Shown: in pieces, positions 4,131 to 62,214 of the stretch
Layout of the letters: each line of letters opens with the position of its first letter
How positions within the stretch are numbered: the stretch's first letter is position 1
Source: Natronomonas salina
Lineage (GTDB): Archaea; Halobacteriota; Halobacteria; Halobacteriales; Haloarculaceae
Assembly (NCBI RefSeq): GCF_013391105.1
Contig: NZ_CP058335.1
Location: 2,232,001 to 2,296,000, forward strand
Length of the DNA stretch: 64,000 nucleotides
Direction of reading: 5' to 3'
The notes under the pieces: generated by a model
Told to the model about the DNA's origin: nothing
What the model saw: only the letters and a program-made list of their open reading frames with translations
The model's database searches: none
Translations under genes and position numbers: made by a program

Positions 4131-7100
4131 CTACTCCGGTGGCGGACCTCCCTGGAATGCAGCCAATGACACGGCACGTGTGGCTACTACGGAGCCACCT
4201 CGCTGATTTCTGCTATATTGTTCCACCGCAACATCCTCAATCGGGAACGACCACGTATAGGAGCCCCATACGGGGCTGTTCGTGATGTCGTCGATCTCGA
4301 GGTCAGCGATTCCACTCGCTGGAGCGTCTTCAGCGGTGAACACATCCGCTCCATAGTCACCGACGCCCTCGCGACAGCTGATCAGGCCGTCCTCGTAGAG
4401 TCGAGCGAGCGTCTTCGCGACGTGTCGCTTGGACACATCGGTAGCGTCCGCCAGTTCTCGGGCGGTCGCGGATTCACGAGCCCGGAGGGCCTCGATCACG
4501 GTTCGCTGAGCGTCAGTGGCGACCCATTCGACGCCTGATACCTCGTGGTCGGCGAAGCCATTCGGCATCGCATTCGTGTGGACGAAGACGAGTGCGTGGT
4601 TTTCGGGGTCGTCTGCATCACGTGCATACCGGCCAGCGGACTGGGCGACGTGGGCTTCACGGACGGACGCCAAGATTTCGCTGGCGGCGTCTGCGTCGGG
4701 GCCGACGAACCCGCGGCCGTGGGCGCGACGTTCGTTTCCGGCCGCCGTTTCGGTGGTCTCGGGTTCGGCGTGGAGATTGCACTCCGCCAGGAGATTCAAG
4801 ACGTAGTCGTCGCCGGGATCGATCGAACCGTGGACGAGCCCGACGTTCCGGTCGCCGAAGTCGTCTCTTGAGCGCTCTTCGCCGAAGTGCATGGTTTCCG
4901 GATCGGAGATGTCGGCCTCGCGCATCAGCTGGGCGACATCGGTCTCGACGCTGGCGGCGGTGATGCAGGTGTCGAAATCGTCGCCATACCGGTGTTCGAG
5001 ATGTTCGATGAGGACTCGCGTGGCATCGGGGTTGAAGTACTCGCCGCTGGCGAGTGGGCGAACGGCGTCCCCGACCTGGACGACGCGGAGCCCCCGCTCA
5101 TAGCGACGCCAGAGGCGGCGTTCGTCGGCGTCCAAAACGCGAGCCGGGAGGATGTCCGTGGTCGTGTTGCGTTCCCAGAGAGGGAGGCTTGGATGTGCGT
5201 CAAGCCCGATCACGCTTCGGGCATTCGAGAGATCGGGGACGCTTCGGACGCTCTGGACGCGGTTATTGTCGTCGATAACGACTGTGATCCAGGTGCGTGA
5301 CCAGCGGTCGTCATCGTGGGCGTTGGCGTCGAGTCGCGGCGGCGTGTAGGTGACGGTGCCGACGGCGCGTCCGTTGACGTCGTGGCCTTGCGCGAGCCCA
5401 GACCAGATGGCCTCTGCCAGCGCGGGCGCGAGGGTATGTGCGTCAGGATCCTCGAAGTACCACTCGAGATCCGGATCGTGGTCGAGGACGCCTCTCGTGG
5501 CGAAGGCTTCTCGAAGTAAATCGTCCTGAACTTGTTGTCGGTATGCGCGCCGGGCCATCGTTACGAAGGCCTCCCAAGTGGTGACAGGCGCGCCAGCTTC
5601 CTGGAGGAACGCCGTGACAGCGCGCTGGATGCGGTCGTTCGTGAGGTGCTCGCCGTCAACGGCGAAGTCAGGCTGCTCGTCGAAGATGACGTTACAATGC
5701 TGGGTGAGTCCGGGGACGTACGCGAACTGGTGGGTGGCGTGAATGACGTCGACGGCGGGGTTGCCGTCCTCGGTTCGAGGCAGGCTGTCCCACTGGCTGA
5801 TCGCGGGACAGGGATCGTCGCCGTGAGAGCACGGGAGGTCGATTCCTTGGTCGTTGTGTTCGGCGAGGTAGGCGTGTGCAGTCGAGAATGGGATGCCGCG
5901 GCCGTCACAGACGGCATCGAACCACTCAGAGGCGGGCGTCCGGTTCATCGTGATATCCGCGGTGTCGTCGTCTTCTTCCGAAGGATCGTGGATGCCGTGG
6001 GCGACTGGACAGGCTTCCTTCCGCCCGCGGAGCACAGCATGGGTCACGCAACTCGCCTCGCTGCTGTGTTCGGCTGCCGTGTCGCGCGCTTCCCGAGTGG
6101 GGCTGAACTGGACCACGGGTTGTTCGCCGGTGACGTTGGCGTGGTCCAGCCAGGGCTCGGTCGCGACGGTATAGCTCTTCCCGAGGCCAGTCGGCGCGTC
6201 GACGACGACGTCCTCCTGGTTTCGCACCGCCTCGAGCACCCGGTCACGCAGCCGATCGCGTGCCTCGTCGGTTGATGGCCATTCGACGTCGCGGTCAGCG
6301 GCAGCACGCGTTCGCTGCTCCTCGTCGAGCGCGTCGAGCTTTTCTAGCGGAACTGTACTCACCGGGTCGCCAGCTCCGGGCTCAGTTTCGTACTCGGGGA
6401 TGTGGGCGCCACGGTCACGTAGCGCCTCGACGGCGGCCCAGAATTCCTCACCGCTGGGATACGCAGTCTCGGTGGTGATGATGCCCTCCTCGAGGGCGAC
6501 AACCTGGAGAGCGTCAAGGCCGATCATCCCTTTGCGATACACCCAGCCATCGTCGACTTCCGCGAGTCGCGTACCGCTCTTCGACTGTGCCCAGCTGGGG
6601 TCGAGGTCCTTGCTTCCGTCGCTTCGCTCGTTGGTCACGCGCGACCGGAGACGGATGTCCGAAGGGCCTGTATGCTGGATGGCGTCGAAGACATCCTGCA
6701 TGTCGTCGGTGGTCTCGATATCTGCGAGTGCCTCTTTCGAGGTACTGGGTGTGGCGTCGAGGTCGTCCGGACGGGACGCAGGCGTGGAGGCTTGCGCAGC
6801 CTCGAGCGCGCCGGGGAAATTGGCCAGGATGTCGTCAACGATCCCCTGGATGTCTCGAGTCGACGACGCGGACTCAGGGATGTGATTGCCGGTGACGGTG
6901 GTGTATCGGCGGCCGGGATAGAGTTCGAGCTCGGCGTCCGGCCACTCGGGCGACGACAGATCAATCGTCAGGGTCTGAACGTCGTCAGGGAGCCGGAAGC
7001 CACCGAGGGCATGCGCGCCCGTGCCGGATGGCGACCACTCGCAGAAGGTCCCGGCGAGCTGGTCGAGTAGCGCCGCGGCGTCGGGGGCGACCTCACCAGT

Positions 7101-31522: not shown

Positions 31523-33001
31523 ATGGACATCGAGTTCGGCACCGACGGCTGGCGGACGACCGTCGACGAGTTCACGACGCCGCGGATCCGCGCCGTGGGC
31601 CAGGCCGTCGCGGACTATCTGCAGGAGACGACCACCGGCGGGGGCCCGGAGTTCGGGGAGGGGGATCTCGCCGTCGCGGTCGGCTACGACCCCCGGGAGG
31701 GCTCCCGGGAGGCCGCCGAGGAGCTCGCGCGGGTGCTCTGTGCCAACGGCGTCGACGCCCACCTCCCCGAGCGCGACACGCCGACGCCGGTGGTCGCGTG
31801 GACGGTCACCGACCGCAACCTCGACGGCGCCCTCCAGGTGACCGCGAGCCACAACCCGCCGGCGTACAACGGCATCAAGTTCGTCCCCGGCGACGGCGCG
31901 CCGGCCCTCCCCGAGGTGACCGACCGGCTGGCCGAGAACCTCCGGGAGCCGGAGCCGCTCGACGAGGCGGAGTGGGGCAGCGTCGAGGAGTCGGACTTCC
32001 TGGAGCCGTACTTCGAGCACGCCCTCGAGTTCGCCGCCGACGCGACGGGACGGGACGCACCCGGCGAGGGCGTCGACCTCTCGGGCGTGACGGTCGCCCA
32101 CGACGCGATGCACGGCAGCGGCCGCGGCGTCACCGACGAACTGCTCTCGCGGGCCGGCGCCGACGTCGTTCGGCTCCGCGGGGAGCGGGACCCCGAGTTC
32201 GGCGGCGAGTCCCCGGAGCCGGGCGCCGACCACCTCGGCGAACTGATGGACCGGGTCGAGGGCGGCGACGCCGACCTCGGCGTGGCCAACGACGGCGACT
32301 CCGACCGCATCGGCGTCGTCACGCCCGACCGCGGCTACGTCTCGCCGAACTGGCTGTTCGCCGCGCTGTACGACTACTTGCTGGAGAGCGAGGCGCCACG
32401 CGCCTCGGACTCCGCGAGCGGTGAGCGAAGCGAACCGCGAGCGGGCGACGCCATCAGGACCGTCTCGACGACGTTCCTCATCGACCACGTCGCCGAGGCC
32501 CACGGCCAGGCTGTCCACGAGACCCCGGTCGGGTTCAAGTGGGTCGGGAAGGCGATGGCCGACCACGACGCCCTCGTCGGCGGCGAGGAGTCCGGCGGCT
32601 TCGGCGTCCGCGGTCACCTCCGCAACAAGGACGGCGTGATGGTCGCGCTGCTGGTGGCGGCCGCCCACGCCGAGGAGCCGCTGGACGACCGCCTCGACCG
32701 CATCCGCGACGAGCACGGCGACATCGTCCAGGACCGCGTCAGCGTCGACTGCCCCGACGACCGGAAGGCCGCCGTCGTCGACACCCTCGAAGACGAGATC
32801 CCCGACCGCGTCGCCGGCACCGAGGTCGACCGCGTCGGCACCGCCGACGGCTTCAAGCTCCTGCTCGCCGACGGCTCGTGGCTCCTCGTCCGACCCAGCG
32901 GGACCGAGCCGAAGCTCCGCGTCTACGCCGAGGCCGGCGACCGCGACCGGGTCGAGGAACTGCTGGCCGCCGGCCGGGACATCGTCGAGCCGCTCATCTG
33001 A
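31523..33001 (+). CDS. Phosphoglucomutase/phosphomannomutase family protein
   Basis: An alpha-D-phosphohexomutase interconverting hexose 1- and 6-phosphates. The 492 residues have the four-domain layout: FGTDGWR, the phosphoserine loop TASHNPPAYNG, the metal loop GVANDGDSDRIGV, the sugar loop GGEESGGFG and the phosphate loop RPSGTEPKLRVY. A hydrophilic insert (SEAPRASDSASGERSEPRAG, 32388-32447) sits in domain 3. It coincides with a GAA-loop hairpin repeat, so it looks like a repeat inserted in frame. The 3' end overlaps the convergent GNAT gene by 8 nt. Confidence 0.9.
   Translation: MDIEFGTDGWRTTVDEFTTPRIRAVGQAVADYLQETTTGGGPEFGEGDLAVAVGYDPREGSREAAEELARVLCANGVDAHLPERDTPTPVVAWTVTDRNLDGALQVTASHNPPAYNGIKFVPGDGAPALPEVTDRLAENLREPEPLDEAEWGSVEESDFLEPYFEHALEFAADATGRDAPGEGVDLSGVTVAHDAMHGSGRGVTDELLSRAGADVVRLRGERDPEFGGESPEPGADHLGELMDRVEGGDADLGVANDGDSDRIGVVTPDRGYVSPNWLFAALYDYLLESEAPRASDSASGERSEPRAGDAIRTVSTTFLIDHVAEAHGQAVHETPVGFKWVGKAMADHDALVGGEESGGFGVRGHLRNKDGVMVALLVAAAHAEEPLDDRLDRIRDEHGDIVQDRVSVDCPDDRKAAVVDTLEDEIPDRVAGTEVDRVGTADGFKLLLADGSWLLVRPSGTEPKLRVYAEAGDRDRVEELLAAGRDIVEPLI
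32412..32446 (+). repeat. GAA-loop hairpin repeat inside the phosphohexomutase gene
   Basis: GCGGT and ACCGC (32418-32422, 32434-32438) pair around GAGCGAAGCGA, whose inner GA...GA and G-C GAA loop match the hairpins at 44.3, 54.5 and 61.3 kb. The direct repeats CCGCGAGCGG flank it. Confidence 0.6.
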
Positions 33002-43496: not shown

Positions 43497-44237
43497 ATGC
43501 TCGACTCCCAGACCTGTCTCGTCACCGGCGCCTCCAGAGGTATCGGTCGCGCTGTCGCGGAGGACCTCGGCCGCCACGGCGCCGAGGTGGTGGTCAACTA
43601 CCGCAGCTCCGACGAGGCGGCTCGCGAGGTCGTCGACGTCATCGAGTCCGAGGGCGGCAGCGCCATCCCCGTCCAGGGCAACGTCGCCGAGTACGACGAC
43701 GTCGAGGCGATGTGCGAGACCGTCCACGACGAGTTCGGCCGCGTCGACGTCCTCGTGAACAACGCCGGCATCACCGTCGACAAGAAGTTCGAGCACATGA
43801 CCCGCGAGGACTGGGACCGCGTGATGGACGTCAACCTCGGCGGCGTCTTCAACTGCACCCACTGCCTCTTCGACGACATCAAGGCCGCCGAGGACGGCCG
43901 GCTCGTCAACATCTCCTCGGTCGTCGGCCAGCAGGGCAACTACGGGCAGGCCAACTACGCGACCACCAAATCGGGGCTCTTCGGGTTCACCCGGACGCTC
44001 GCCCTCGAACTCGCCTCGAGCGGCTCGACCGCCAACTGCGTCGCCCCCGGTTTCGTGAAGACCGACATGCTCGAGACCGTCCCCGAGCGCGTCCAGGAGA
44101 AGATCCTCCAGCGCATCCCCCTCGATCGCTTCGCCACCCCCGAGGACGTCGCCGGCATCGTCCGCTTCGTCGCCGGCGAGGACGCCGGTTACATGACCGG
44201 CCAGATCCTGGCCGTCAACGGCGGCATGGAGTGGTAG
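43497..44237 (+). CDS. 3-oxoacyl reductase of the SDR family (FabG/PhaB-like)
   Basis: An NAD(P)H-dependent short-chain reductase for 3-oxoacyl-CoA/ACP. The 246 residues carry the cofactor motif TGASRGIGRAVAE, the NNAG motif, and the catalytic set: Ser in NISSVVGQQG and Tyr/Lys in YATTKSG. The RSS after the second strand favours NADPH. In haloarchaea such reductases act in polyhydroxyalkanoate supply or lipid metabolism, so the precise role is open. A composite palindromic repeat begins right after its stop codon. Confidence 0.9.
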   Translation: MLDSQTCLVTGASRGIGRAVAEDLGRHGAEVVVNYRSSDEAAREVVDVIESEGGSAIPVQGNVAEYDDVEAMCETVHDEFGRVDVLVNNAGITVDKKFEHMTREDWDRVMDVNLGGVFNCTHCLFDDIKAAEDGRLVNISSVVGQQGNYGQANYATTKSGLFGFTRTLALELASSGSTANCVAPGFVKTDMLETVPERVQEKILQRIPLDRFATPEDVAGIVRFVAGEDAGYMTGQILAVNGGMEW

Positions 44238-44238
44238 A

Positions 44239-44430
44239 CACCCACTTTTTGCACGCTCGGCGCGGCGGTACCGCGCCTCGCGGCAAAAACGTGGGGAAAA
44301 TATGCGCACCCTCCTCCTGTCGCGGGCCCTCACTTCGTTCGGGCCCGCGGTAGTCGTCGGGCGCTACCGTCGCCTCCCTTCGGTCGGCGACGGAGAACCG
44401 CCTCGTGGGCGACCAAAGGTCGCCCACTCG
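44239..44430 (-). repeat. Composite palindromic repeat, copy 1
   Basis: Starting just after the SDR stop, this stretch is the inverse complement of the repeat at 54.5 kb. On the minus strand: hairpin GTGGGCGACC/GGTCGCCCAC (44405-44427), hairpin CCGTCGCC/GGCGACGG (44367-44393) around GACCGAAGGGA, a core TAGCGCCCGACGACTACCGC, hairpin GCGGGCCC (44322-44348) around GAACGAAGTGA, ACAGGAGGAGGG, CATATTTTCCCCACG and a terminal pair TTTTTGC/GCAAAAA enclosing a variable palindrome. It is not protein-coding: only DNA-level identity is evident. Confidence 0.75.
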
Positions 44431-44509
44431 GCGGATACTCACAATTGAAACTGCAGTCAGCTATGCGACCAGGAAAACCTACTACGTCACCTCCGGATTA
44501 CACAGCAAG

Positions 44510-54302: not shown

Positions 54303-54451
54303 GTTCCAGTCGAAGTGTAGGTGCTGCAGACGTATGAGTGACTCGGCGGAACGGTCCGCCTTCCCTTGGTTTCGACCACATTTACCTCGGTTTCGGGTTC
54401 GTTACTCGCTGCCGGAATCAGCCCGGCCGGTCAGGGCCAACATACCAGCAT

Positions 54452-54630
54452 CCGCGCGACCGAAGGGAGCGCGGTTCACGGCGACGAGCGACCGCAGGGA
54501 GCGAGTCGCCGTAGCGCCCGACGACTACCGCGGGCCCGAACGAAGTGAGGGCCTGCGACAGGAGGAGGGCGCGCATATTTTCCCCACGTTTTTGCCGGAC
54601 GGCCGGAGGCCGTCCGTGCAAAAAGTGGGT
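54452..54630 (+). repeat. Composite palindromic repeat, copy 2
   Basis: Plus-strand copy, inverted relative to 44239-44430. In order: CCGCGC/GCGCGG around GACCGAAGGGA (54452-54474); ACGGCGAC/GTCGCCGT around nested GA-GC-GACCGCAGGGA (54478-54512); the core starting TAGCGCCCGACGACTACCGC; GCGGGCCC/GGGCCTGC around GAACGAAGTGA (54530-54556); ACAGGAGGAGGGCGCG; and TCCCCACG-TTTTTGC paired with GCAAAAAGTGGG around a variable GGACGGCC-GGA-GGCCGTCC (54582-54630). The core is over 95 percent identical to copy 1 by eye, while stems differ. Confidence 0.75.
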
Positions 54631-54668
54631 CGAAGGCCTTAGTACGGAGGCGACGGAAGCGAGCAGGT

Positions 54669-59667: not shown

Positions 59668-62214
59668 ATGGCGACCGCCACCGACGAGCCGGAGTACATC
59701 GAGGGGCCGATGCTGGTCGACGGCCTGCTCGAGAAGCGCCGCTACCAGCTCCGGCTGGCGGAGACCGCCCAGCGCGACCACACGCTCGTCTGCCTGCCGA
59801 CGGGGCTGGGCAAGACGGCGGTGAGTCTGCTCGTGACCGCCGAGCGGCTGTCCGAGCACGGCGGCACGTCGCTACTGCTGGCGCCGACGAAGCCGCTCGT
59901 CCAGCAGCACGCGACGTTCTACCGGGAGGCGCTGACGGTCGACGACGACGAGGTGGTGGTCTTCACCGGCGACGTCCGACCCGACGACCGCGCGGAACTG
60001 TGGGACTCCGCGTCGGTCGTCTGCGCGACGCCGCAGGTCGTCGAGAACGACCTCGTCGGCAACCGCGTCTCGCTGGCCGACGTCACGCACGTCACCTTCG
60101 ACGAGTGCCACCGCGCGACCGGCGACTACGCCTACAACTACATCGCCGAGCGCTACCACGAGGACGCCCAGGAGCCGCTGGTCACCGGGATGAGCGCCTC
60201 GCCGGGCGGCGACAAGGAGGAGATACTCACCGTCTGCGACAACCTCGGGCTCCGGGAGGTCGCGGTGATGACCGAGGACGACGCCGACGTCGCCGAGCAC
60301 ACCTTCCAGACCGACGTCGAGTGGGAGCGCGTCGAGCTCCCGGAGACGGTCATCGAGATCCGGGACGCGCTCAACGAGGTGGTCTCCGAGCGCCTCGAGA
60401 AGCTCAAGCAGCTCGGCGTCACCAACTCGACGGACCCGAACATGTCCCAGAAGCAGCTGAACGCCATCCGCGCGAAGCTGCAGGAGCTCATCAACAACGA
60501 CAACGGGGACGGCTACAAGGGAATGTCCGCCCACGCGGAGATCATGAAGCTCCGGCGGGCCGTCGAGCTCGTCGAGACCCAGAGCGTCGAGTCGCTACGC
60601 CGCTACTTCGAGCGCCAGCGCGAGGACGCCCGCTCCTCGGGGTCCTCGAAGGCCAGCCAGCGGTTCGTCAGCGAACCCCGGGTGAAGGAGGCGATGCGCC
60701 GCGCCGAGGAGTTCGATGACCTCCACCCGAAGTTCCGCCGGACGCGCATCCTGCTGGCCCAGACCCTCGGCATCGAGGACGGCGAGCGCGTCATCGTCTT
60801 CACCGAATCGAGAGACACCGCCGAGACGCTCACGGAGTTCCTCGGCGAGCACTTCGAGACCCGGCGGTTCGTCGGCCAGGGCGACAAGGAGGGCTCCGAC
60901 GGGATGACCCAGACGGAGCAGAAGGAGACCCTCGACGAGTTCCGCGCCGGCGAGTTCGAGGTGCTCGTCTCGACGTCCGTCGCCGAGGAGGGCCTCGACG
61001 TCCCGGACGTCGACCTGGTGCTGTTCTACGAGCCGGTCCCGAAGGGCATCCGCTCCATCCAGCGGAAGGGCCGGACCGGCCGCGCCAGCGAGGGCCGCGT
61101 CGTCGTCCTCCTGGCCGAGGACACCCGCGACGAGGCCTTCTTCTGGATGTCCCGCAACGAGGAGAAGAAGATGGAGAAGGAGCTCCGGAAGCTGAAGAAC
61201 ATGGAGGGCGAGATCGAGGTCGAGATCGCCGAGCAGCGCGGTCTCGACGAGTTCGAAAGCGAGGGCGACCGAAGGGAGCCCTCGGAGCAGGCGAGCGGCG
61301 AAGCCGCGAGCCCGGACGATGAGTCCAGCGGGGCCGACGGGGACACCGCGGAGGCGGCGACGGCGACCGAAGACGCCGACGCTAGCGATGCCGACGGCCA
61401 GGCCGGCCTCGCCGACTTCGCGGGCGACGTGGCCGACGAAGGGGAGAGCACAGAAGACGACGCCGACACCGGCGACGGTGACGAGAACGAGGACGAGGGC
61501 GACGACCCCGAAGCCACCGTCGCGACGGCCGCCCCCGACGGCGAGACCGTCGAGGTCGTCGTCGACCAGCGGGAACTGGACTCCCACATCGCGCGGGACC
61601 TCTCGACCCGCGACGGGATCGAGACCCGCCTGGAGACCCTGGAGGTCGGCGACTACGTCCTCTCCGACCGGGTGGTCGTCGAGCGGAAGTCCGTCGCGGA
61701 CTTCGTGGACACGCTCGTCGGCGGCGACCGCTCGATGTTCGAGCAGGTCGGCGCCGCCGCCCGCTACTACGCGCGGCCGGTCGTGATCATCGAGGGCGAG
61801 GACCTCTACGGCGAGCGGAACGTCCACCCGAACGCCATCCGCGGCGCGCTCGCGTCGCTGGCGGTCGACTTCGGCGCGAGCGTGATGCAGACCGCCGACG
61901 CCGACGAGACGGCCGACCTGCTTGAGGTCGTCGCCACCCGCGAGCAGGAGACCGCCAGCCGCGACGTCTCCGTCCACGGCGAGAAGGGCGGCAAGACCCT
62001 CACCGAGCAGCAGGAGTACGTCGTCGGCGCCATCGCGGAGGTCGGTCCCGTCACCGCCCGGGGGCTGCTGGAGCACTTCGGCAGCGTCGAGGCCGTGATG
62101 ACCGCGGAGGAGGAGGACCTACTCGAGGTCGACGGCGTCGGCGAGGTGACCGCCGGCCGCATCCGCGAGGTCACCGGCACCGAGTACGCCGGCACCGACC
62201 GGCGGGACGACTGA
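59668..62214 (+). CDS. hef: Hef helicase-nuclease (FANCM/XPF family)
   Basis: An archaeal fork-processing enzyme, related to FANCM and XPF. The 848 residues hold an SF2 helicase (VCLPTGLGKTAVSL; FDECHRATG; TGMSASPGG; SVAEEGLDVP; IQRKGRTGRA), an acidic linker, an XPF-type nuclease with intact motif (GDYVLSDRVVVERKSVADF) and two helix-hairpin-helix units (ARGLLEHFGSVEAV; LLEVDGVGEVTAGRI). The linker, about residues 525-630, contains two GAA-loop hairpin repeats at 61261-61311. It starts 293 nt after the aIF-1A start, with no gene in the gap. Confidence 0.95.
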   Translation: MATATDEPEYIEGPMLVDGLLEKRRYQLRLAETAQRDHTLVCLPTGLGKTAVSLLVTAERLSEHGGTSLLLAPTKPLVQQHATFYREALTVDDDEVVVFTGDVRPDDRAELWDSASVVCATPQVVENDLVGNRVSLADVTHVTFDECHRATGDYAYNYIAERYHEDAQEPLVTGMSASPGGDKEEILTVCDNLGLREVAVMTEDDADVAEHTFQTDVEWERVELPETVIEIRDALNEVVSERLEKLKQLGVTNSTDPNMSQKQLNAIRAKLQELINNDNGDGYKGMSAHAEIMKLRRAVELVETQSVESLRRYFERQREDARSSGSSKASQRFVSEPRVKEAMRRAEEFDDLHPKFRRTRILLAQTLGIEDGERVIVFTESRDTAETLTEFLGEHFETRRFVGQGDKEGSDGMTQTEQKETLDEFRAGEFEVLVSTSVAEEGLDVPDVDLVLFYEPVPKGIRSIQRKGRTGRASEGRVVVLLAEDTRDEAFFWMSRNEEKKMEKELRKLKNMEGEIEVEIAEQRGLDEFESEGDRREPSEQASGEAASPDDESSGADGDTAEAATATEDADASDADGQAGLADFAGDVADEGESTEDDADTGDGDENEDEGDDPEATVATAAPDGETVEVVVDQRELDSHIARDLSTRDGIETRLETLEVGDYVLSDRVVVERKSVADFVDTLVGGDRSMFEQVGAAARYYARPVVIIEGEDLYGERNVHPNAIRGALASLAVDFGASVMQTADADETADLLEVVATREQETASRDVSVHGEKGGKTLTEQQEYVVGAIAEVGPVTARGLLEHFGSVEAVMTAEEEDLLEVDGVGEVTAGRIREVTGTEYAGTDRRDD
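61261..61311 (+). repeat. Two GAA-loop hairpins inside the hef linker
   Basis: First: GAGGGC/GCCCTC around GACCGAAGGGA (61261-61283). Second: GC, then GA, then GCGGC, triloop GAA, GCCGC, GA and GC (61291-61311). Both follow the same pattern as the repeats at 44.3 and 54.5 kb and encode part of the acidic linker (EGDRREPSEQASGEAAS). Confidence 0.65.

Follow-up and report, generated by a model that had tools for sequence, protein, structure and literature searches.

Hairpins of Natronomonas salina as exchangeable modules of a dispersed and possibly mobile element at gene ends

A set of hairpins in a 64-kb stretch of the Natronomonas salina chromosome (the window; G000:C1:2232001-2296000) belongs, for the most part, to a larger dispersed element. 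In this element four covarying hairpins are set between conserved linkers, copies exchange whole hairpins with one another, and the copy number ranges from 0 to about 40 within the genus. Its 3' end is placed immediately after stop codons, and duplications of gene 3' ends flank the element in several relatives. We propose a mobile, recombining DNA-hairpin element, of which the hairpins are exchangeable modules and which probably also serves as a bidirectional terminator, and we put the probability of this reading at about 0.5. The window has a GC content of 67.6%, contains an archaeal rRNA operon, and lies in a genome consisting of a single contig of 3,746,575 bases.

Hairpin centres and the element that contains them

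The first-pass annotation had described hairpins with a shared centre in which N and N' pair, and all seven of the centres that it listed are present at the positions given. The centre is enriched both in the window, where GANCGMAGNGA occurs eight times (2.9 +/- 1.6 in dinucleotide shuffles, of which 1 in 100 reaches this number), and in the whole genome, with 125 occurrences of GANCGAAGNGA as compared with 36 of the reversed pattern. In an 864-kb sample GANCGNAGN'GA is found 59 times between genes, and N and N' form a Watson-Crick pair in 51 of these, which agrees with the covariation proposed; 30 of the 51 are enclosed by another stem of 4 bp or more, and none of the reversed controls had both features. 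The fold suggested for the centre, of tandem G-A pairs, N-N', C-G and a triloop, is also borne out in related genomes. The loop, described as GAA or GCA, is indeed a triloop but its middle base is free (GAA 20, GGA 15, GTA 9 and GCA 7 among the 51 intergenic centres). Outer stems, said always to pair, are absent from an eighth match in the window (6619-6629, minus strand), and the centre at 54490-54500 proved to be part of a longer stem broken by an additional GA/GA pair.

The hairpins at 44322-44393 and 54452-54556 are parts of two copies of the larger element, on which the annotation was silent, and the other two are solitary and intragenic (Table 1).

Table 1. Parts of the element and related hairpins in the window (window coordinates)
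Feature	Position	Strand	Structure	Remarks
Whole element, copy 1 (type 1)	54448..54629	+		46 BLAST matches in own genome (query 54440-54660); covariance-model match G000:C1:2286478-2286596, 99 bits
Hairpin H1 of copy 1	54452..54474	+	CCGCGC.GA.C.C(GAA)G.G.GA.GCGCGG	DNA fold
Hairpin H2 of copy 1	54479..54511	+	CGGCGAC.GA.GC.GA.C.C(GCA)G.G.GA.GC.GA.GTCGCCG	DNA fold; covarying stem columns, 98% paired (103 distinct copies)
Outer stem of copy 1, around H3	54514..54572	+	GCGCCC/GGGCGC, 54514-54519 with 54567-54572	Covarying in both alignments
Hairpin H3 of copy 1	54529..54557	+	CGCGGGCCC.GA.A.C(GAA)G.T.GA.GGGCCTGCG	
Conserved linker of copy 1	54573..54593	+	GCATATTTTCCCCACGTTTTT	Sense-strand T4C and T5 runs; T5 in 99/103 copies
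Terminal hairpin H4 of copy 1	54582..54629	+	CCCCAC-TTTTTGC-core-GCAAAAA-GTGGG	T5 runs on both strands; A5 in 100/103 copies
Whole element, copy 2	44241..44438	-		3' end 3 nt behind stop codon (44235-44237) of SDR-type gene
Solitary hairpin in phosphohexomutase-like gene	32418..32438	+		Within 14-16-aa insertion
Solitary hairpin in Hef-like helicase gene (59668-62214)	61261..61283	+		Within variable linker

The unit is about 200 bases long, and the copies read span approximately 180-310 bp with at least four hairpins. Its modules follow the order GCATCCGC-H1-GCGGTTC-H2-GTAG-outer stem around H3-GCATATTTTCCCCA-TTTTTGC-H4-GCAAAAA-GTGGG. Linkers are constant and hairpins variable, giving the linker consensus GCATCCGC-H1-GCGGTTC-H2-GTAGCG..outer stem..H3..GCGCATATTTTCCCCA(A/C)GTTTTTGCC-H4-GGTGCAAAAAGTGG. 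The outer stem is replaced wholesale between copies (GCGCCC/GGGCGC, GCGAGCGCC/GGCGCTCGC, GCGAGAACC/GGTTCTCGC and GCGACGAGC/GCGAGTCGC, the last with an internal GA/GA), and some copies have additional hairpins, such as TTCGGAAATCGCC..GGCGATTTCCGCAGCCCATCAGAAGTGCTTCGCACTTCTGAGGA, which lies between GTAG and the outer stem. Exchange of modules is seen in the pair L225 and L231, which are near-identical over H3 and an inserted block and differ in H1, H2 and the H4 core. Between copies, sequence identity does not extend past the borders of the element, and the two ends, GCATCCGC and GTGGG, are not inverted repeats. At one locus (L300, G029:C1:2763331-2763632) a 142-bp type-2-like unit is present as three head-to-tail tandem copies.

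Within genes, the hairpin at 32.4 kb lies in a 14-16-residue insertion (SEAPRASDSASGERSEPRAG) that six Natronomonas congeners lack (32400-32450); hairpin units may insert in frame into genes. The hairpin in the Hef-like gene lies in a variable linker and is, for this reason, at most a candidate coding insertion.

Covariation and the folding strand

Two alignments were used to assess covariation. Across 23 aligned copies the proposed structure pairs 81% of cells, against 66.5% with partners shuffled, and there are 69 double-change cells as compared with 24.8 in the shuffles. In 103 distinct model-aligned copies 87.5% of cells are paired (66.5% in shuffles), with 397 double changes against 114, and when the structure is slid by 1-3 columns only 17-53% are paired. 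The larger alignment is biased towards the structure on which it was fitted, so the unfitted 23-copy alignment is the safer test; the two agree, and the selection on folding that the first-pass annotation had argued for is upheld both genome-wide and in relatives. The linker flank of H4 also changes together with the element end (CCCA/TGGG, CGAA/TTCG, CGAC/GTCG and CGCA/TGCG), although in an automated test pairing of the flanks around T5 was no better than in shuffled sequence, the type-1 flanks being near-constant and compensation visible only between types.

Whether DNA or RNA folds had been left undecided, and the hairpins themselves favour DNA. They were extracted from all copies with no assumed loop sequence, the strand being set by the linkers. 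Triloops cap 268 of the 326 distinct hairpins, and 191 of the 326 have C(GNA)G loops; among the hairpins listed there is no C(GNRA)G or UUCG tetraloop, and no tetraloop preference was seen in intergenic hairpins. Double mismatches on the sense strand are GA/GA in 227 instances, AG/AG in 25 and TC/TC in 2. G-U pairs make up 2.75% of predicted pairs in the elements, whereas the same folding program gave 12.1% for SSU rRNA and 11.4% for LSU rRNA from the window, 10.7% when the elements were shuffled and 9.9% for coding DNA. In 82 of 88 cases DNA parameters give the sense strand the greater stability. The exceptional stability of DNA with GNA loops or sheared G-A pairs is established for oligonucleotides. 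It has also been invoked for Streptomyces telomeres (PMC7205883). Because the loops are GNA triloops rather than tetraloops, GA/GA is confined largely to a single strand and G-U pairs are few, selection most likely acts on the folding of one DNA strand. The low G-U content and the perfect stems could in part be due to template-directed repair of palindromes.

Position at gene ends

Gene positions were taken from a simple codon-based caller, as the genomes were unannotated. The next gene is convergent at 89 of 103 copies, and at 82 of the 103 a distance of 0-6 nt separates its stop codon from the 3' end of the element, a spacing expected in 1.5-4.3% under uniform placement in gaps. The 5' end is loosely placed. 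In the remaining 14 copies (about one in seven) the next gene is on the same strand, and for eight of these, including the window copy at 54448, it starts 39-45 nt away, so that the element would end just upstream of the expected promoter position. Four copies (L112, L119, L121 and L122) have a doubled end (..AAAAAGTGGGTGCCGAAAAGTGGG), with the stop codon 17-20 nt off. In other families of the order the 3' ends of L309, L313, L314 and L315 adjoin tRNA genes.

The T5 and A5 runs of H4 are retained in about 97% of copies while the rest of this hairpin varies freely. On the gene strand T5 begins approximately 4-10 nt past the stop codon in 82 of 103 copies, and in Haloferax volcanii T5C gives 95% termination (PMC7237163). 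Given the placement behind stop codons, the retention of T5/A5 and the behaviour of T5C in Haloferax, it is reasonable to regard the element as a putative bidirectional terminator. T5 was found within 40 nt at only 40 of 870 sampled gene ends. A generic T5GC terminator can be rejected as the insertion target, CTTTTTGC being present within 30 nt at only 9 of 870 gene ends.

Distribution and flanking duplications

A covariance model detected 37 copies in this 3.75-Mb genome, and within Natronomonas 40 in G087, 18 in G077 and a single copy in each of G029 and G041, with four further genomes giving no match. Other genera have smaller amplifications, and relatives of the element are thinly spread over further families of the order and through Halobacteria. 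When orthologues of 23 type-1-bearing gene ends were compared, about 15 were occupied in G087, 12 of them by type 2 (one of these 12, L110, is a paralogue match and should be discounted), for which the linker is ..CTTTTTCATCGAAG-TTTTTGC..GCAAAAA-GTTCG. No element was found at any of 17 orthologous gene ends in G029 or 14 in G009, where the gene ends are bare, and in some orthologous gaps the element is in the opposite orientation. One element is located behind the thermosome gene in several genera (L141-L145 and L317), a site that is perhaps ancestral.

Type-2 and type-3 copies at three gene ends, in several genera, are flanked by direct duplications of 43-93 bp of the gene 3' end. These copies (L288, L289, L305, L296 and L307, in G005, G053, G059 and G008) have the linker CTTTTTCATC(C/G)ACGTTTTT or close variants of it. 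Where the duplicated gene ends differ, the changes are mainly synonymous or affect the stop codon, as though one copy of the gene end had arrived with the insert. A recurrent duplication-flanked site is found behind a NuoI-like gene. Target duplication was not detected at type-1 copies, whose flanks were the same as in shuffled sequence.

The copies read (about 110-310 bp) are non-coding and encode no integrase, and no enzyme for insertion was found. Mobilisation by IS200/IS605 (Y1) transposases or RAYTs was rejected, as PF01797 counts are unlinked to element number (11 elements and no Y1 in G028, one element and four Y1 in G029). Nor does the element appear to be a MITE, since it has no terminal inverted repeats and its type-1 copies are without target-site duplication. 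A viral or plasmid origin was likewise set aside, viral contigs and phages giving no match and plasmids a single match of 35 bp.

Discussion

The strand that carries GA/GA and GNA would probably fold as single-stranded DNA, and it is rather likely that it would be recognised in this form when copied into gene ends. For the role at the site of insertion the chances seem about even: the T5 runs of H4, on two strands, would stop transcription of the convergent gene shortly past its stop codon, and the T4-5C and T5 runs would stop that from the opposite side. This rests on the keeping of T5 runs on both strands of H4 together with the T4-5C run. With such activity, an element that inserts behind a gene would be tolerated or of use. 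The copies followed by a same-strand gene count against a terminator, as they have no convergent gene to terminate.

It is also conceivable, though improbable, that the element is a structured RNA family, the transcribed sense strand acting within a 3' UTR or as an antisense small RNA against the end of the neighbouring gene. Strong strand-specific folding and covariation would be in keeping with this, as would the T4-5C run after the outer stem, which resembles the end of an RNA gene, and tandem G-A pairs are stable in RNA too. However, the frequency of G-U pairs is a quarter of that in rRNA of the same genome, and the listed hairpins have GNA triloops in place of GNRA or UUCG loops. Moreover, no conserved promoter was seen upstream of GCATCC, upstream genes are oriented half by tail and half by head, and Rfam matches in the window were limited to rRNA and tRNA, so that a known RNA family was rejected. 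No more probable than an RNA is a terminator without dedicated mobility, that is, a native cassette inherited with its gene, the stems of which drift under pairing and the copies of which are spread by ordinary recombination. The fixed placement behind stop codons, the retained T runs, the single copies behind the thermosome gene and tRNA genes and the sites held in common with G087 are what this would lead one to expect. On the other hand, it does not account for bare gene ends in G029 and G009, a range of 0-40 copies within one genus, opposite orientations at orthologous gaps or long flanking duplications, and a T-run terminator has no need of three of the four hairpins.

Far less probable than either is that the palindromes are a mutational by-product, kept perfect by intrastrand template switching during replication and not by selection for folding. 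The stems are nearly perfect, and module swaps and inserts do resemble template switching. Repair of this kind should nevertheless remove mismatches, whereas GA/GA persists at many positions and TC/TC is almost never seen on the same strand; the conserved linkers and fixed position are also unfavourable to it. We prefer a mobile, recombining DNA-hairpin element. Its extension to a mobile-element class of archaea not yet described, with a single-stranded DNA intermediate of tandem G-A and GNA hairpins, insertion at gene 3' ends, exchange of hairpins and supply of a new terminator through some enzyme, is put forward only tentatively.

Among known systems, REP/BIME sequences and REPtrons (TnpA-REP/RAYT) are dispersed intergenic palindromes with strand-specific mismatches or loops and a GTAG motif, recognised as single-stranded hairpins (PMC8266576, PMC3733652). 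The aligned copies of Natronomonas type have an invariant GTAG, which is absent in several other genera, and the sequence signature of the element would be compatible with strand-specific recognition of single-stranded DNA. In contrast to REPs of 20-40 bp, the element extends over about 180-310 bp with four unlike hairpins in fixed order and orientation, and unlike REPtrons it is tightly placed behind stop codons and its copy number is not tracked by Y1 transposases. BOX-type repeats of pneumococcus are modular, dispersed intergenic stem-loop elements. The element is like them in these respects (related paper: PMC3049150), but BOX has no known GNA/GA grammar or fixed stop-codon spacing and belongs to a different domain of life. 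Telomeres of linear Streptomyces chromosomes, of about 160 nt, have several palindromes with sheared purine loops (5'-GNA-3'), fold as single-stranded DNA and show compensatory changes (PMC7205883). These are located at chromosome ends and have terminal proteins, whereas the element is present as dozens of internal copies at gene ends in a single-contig assembly.

A T5 run just behind genes is shared with archaeal T-run terminators, which ordinarily have no conserved array of hairpins such as the four found here. Where the gene 3' end is directly duplicated to either side of the insert, the two copies differing synonymously, the element recalls integrative elements of gene and tRNA 3' ends, but the insert is only about 110-250 bp, has no integrase gene, and in most (type-1) copies is without a duplication. 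A search of the literature on haloarchaeal palindromic, MITE or stem-loop repeats, with most subscription papers outside its range, gave no description of the element. Dispersed intergenic palindromes are a known kind of sequence; in the papers searched, no description was found of the combination of an alternating GA/2-bp hairpin grammar, a fixed order of four hairpins, exchange of hairpins and stop-codon placement.

Extra-stable DNA hairpins with GNA loops and sheared G-A pairs have so far been known mainly from oligonucleotides and Streptomyces telomeres. If our reading is true, the element would be natural, genome-wide evidence of chromosomal selection for such hairpins. It would also provide a tractable example, in archaea, of mobile DNA that comes to rest behind genes and may alter the ends of their transcripts, and it poses the question of what enzyme recognises the hairpins.
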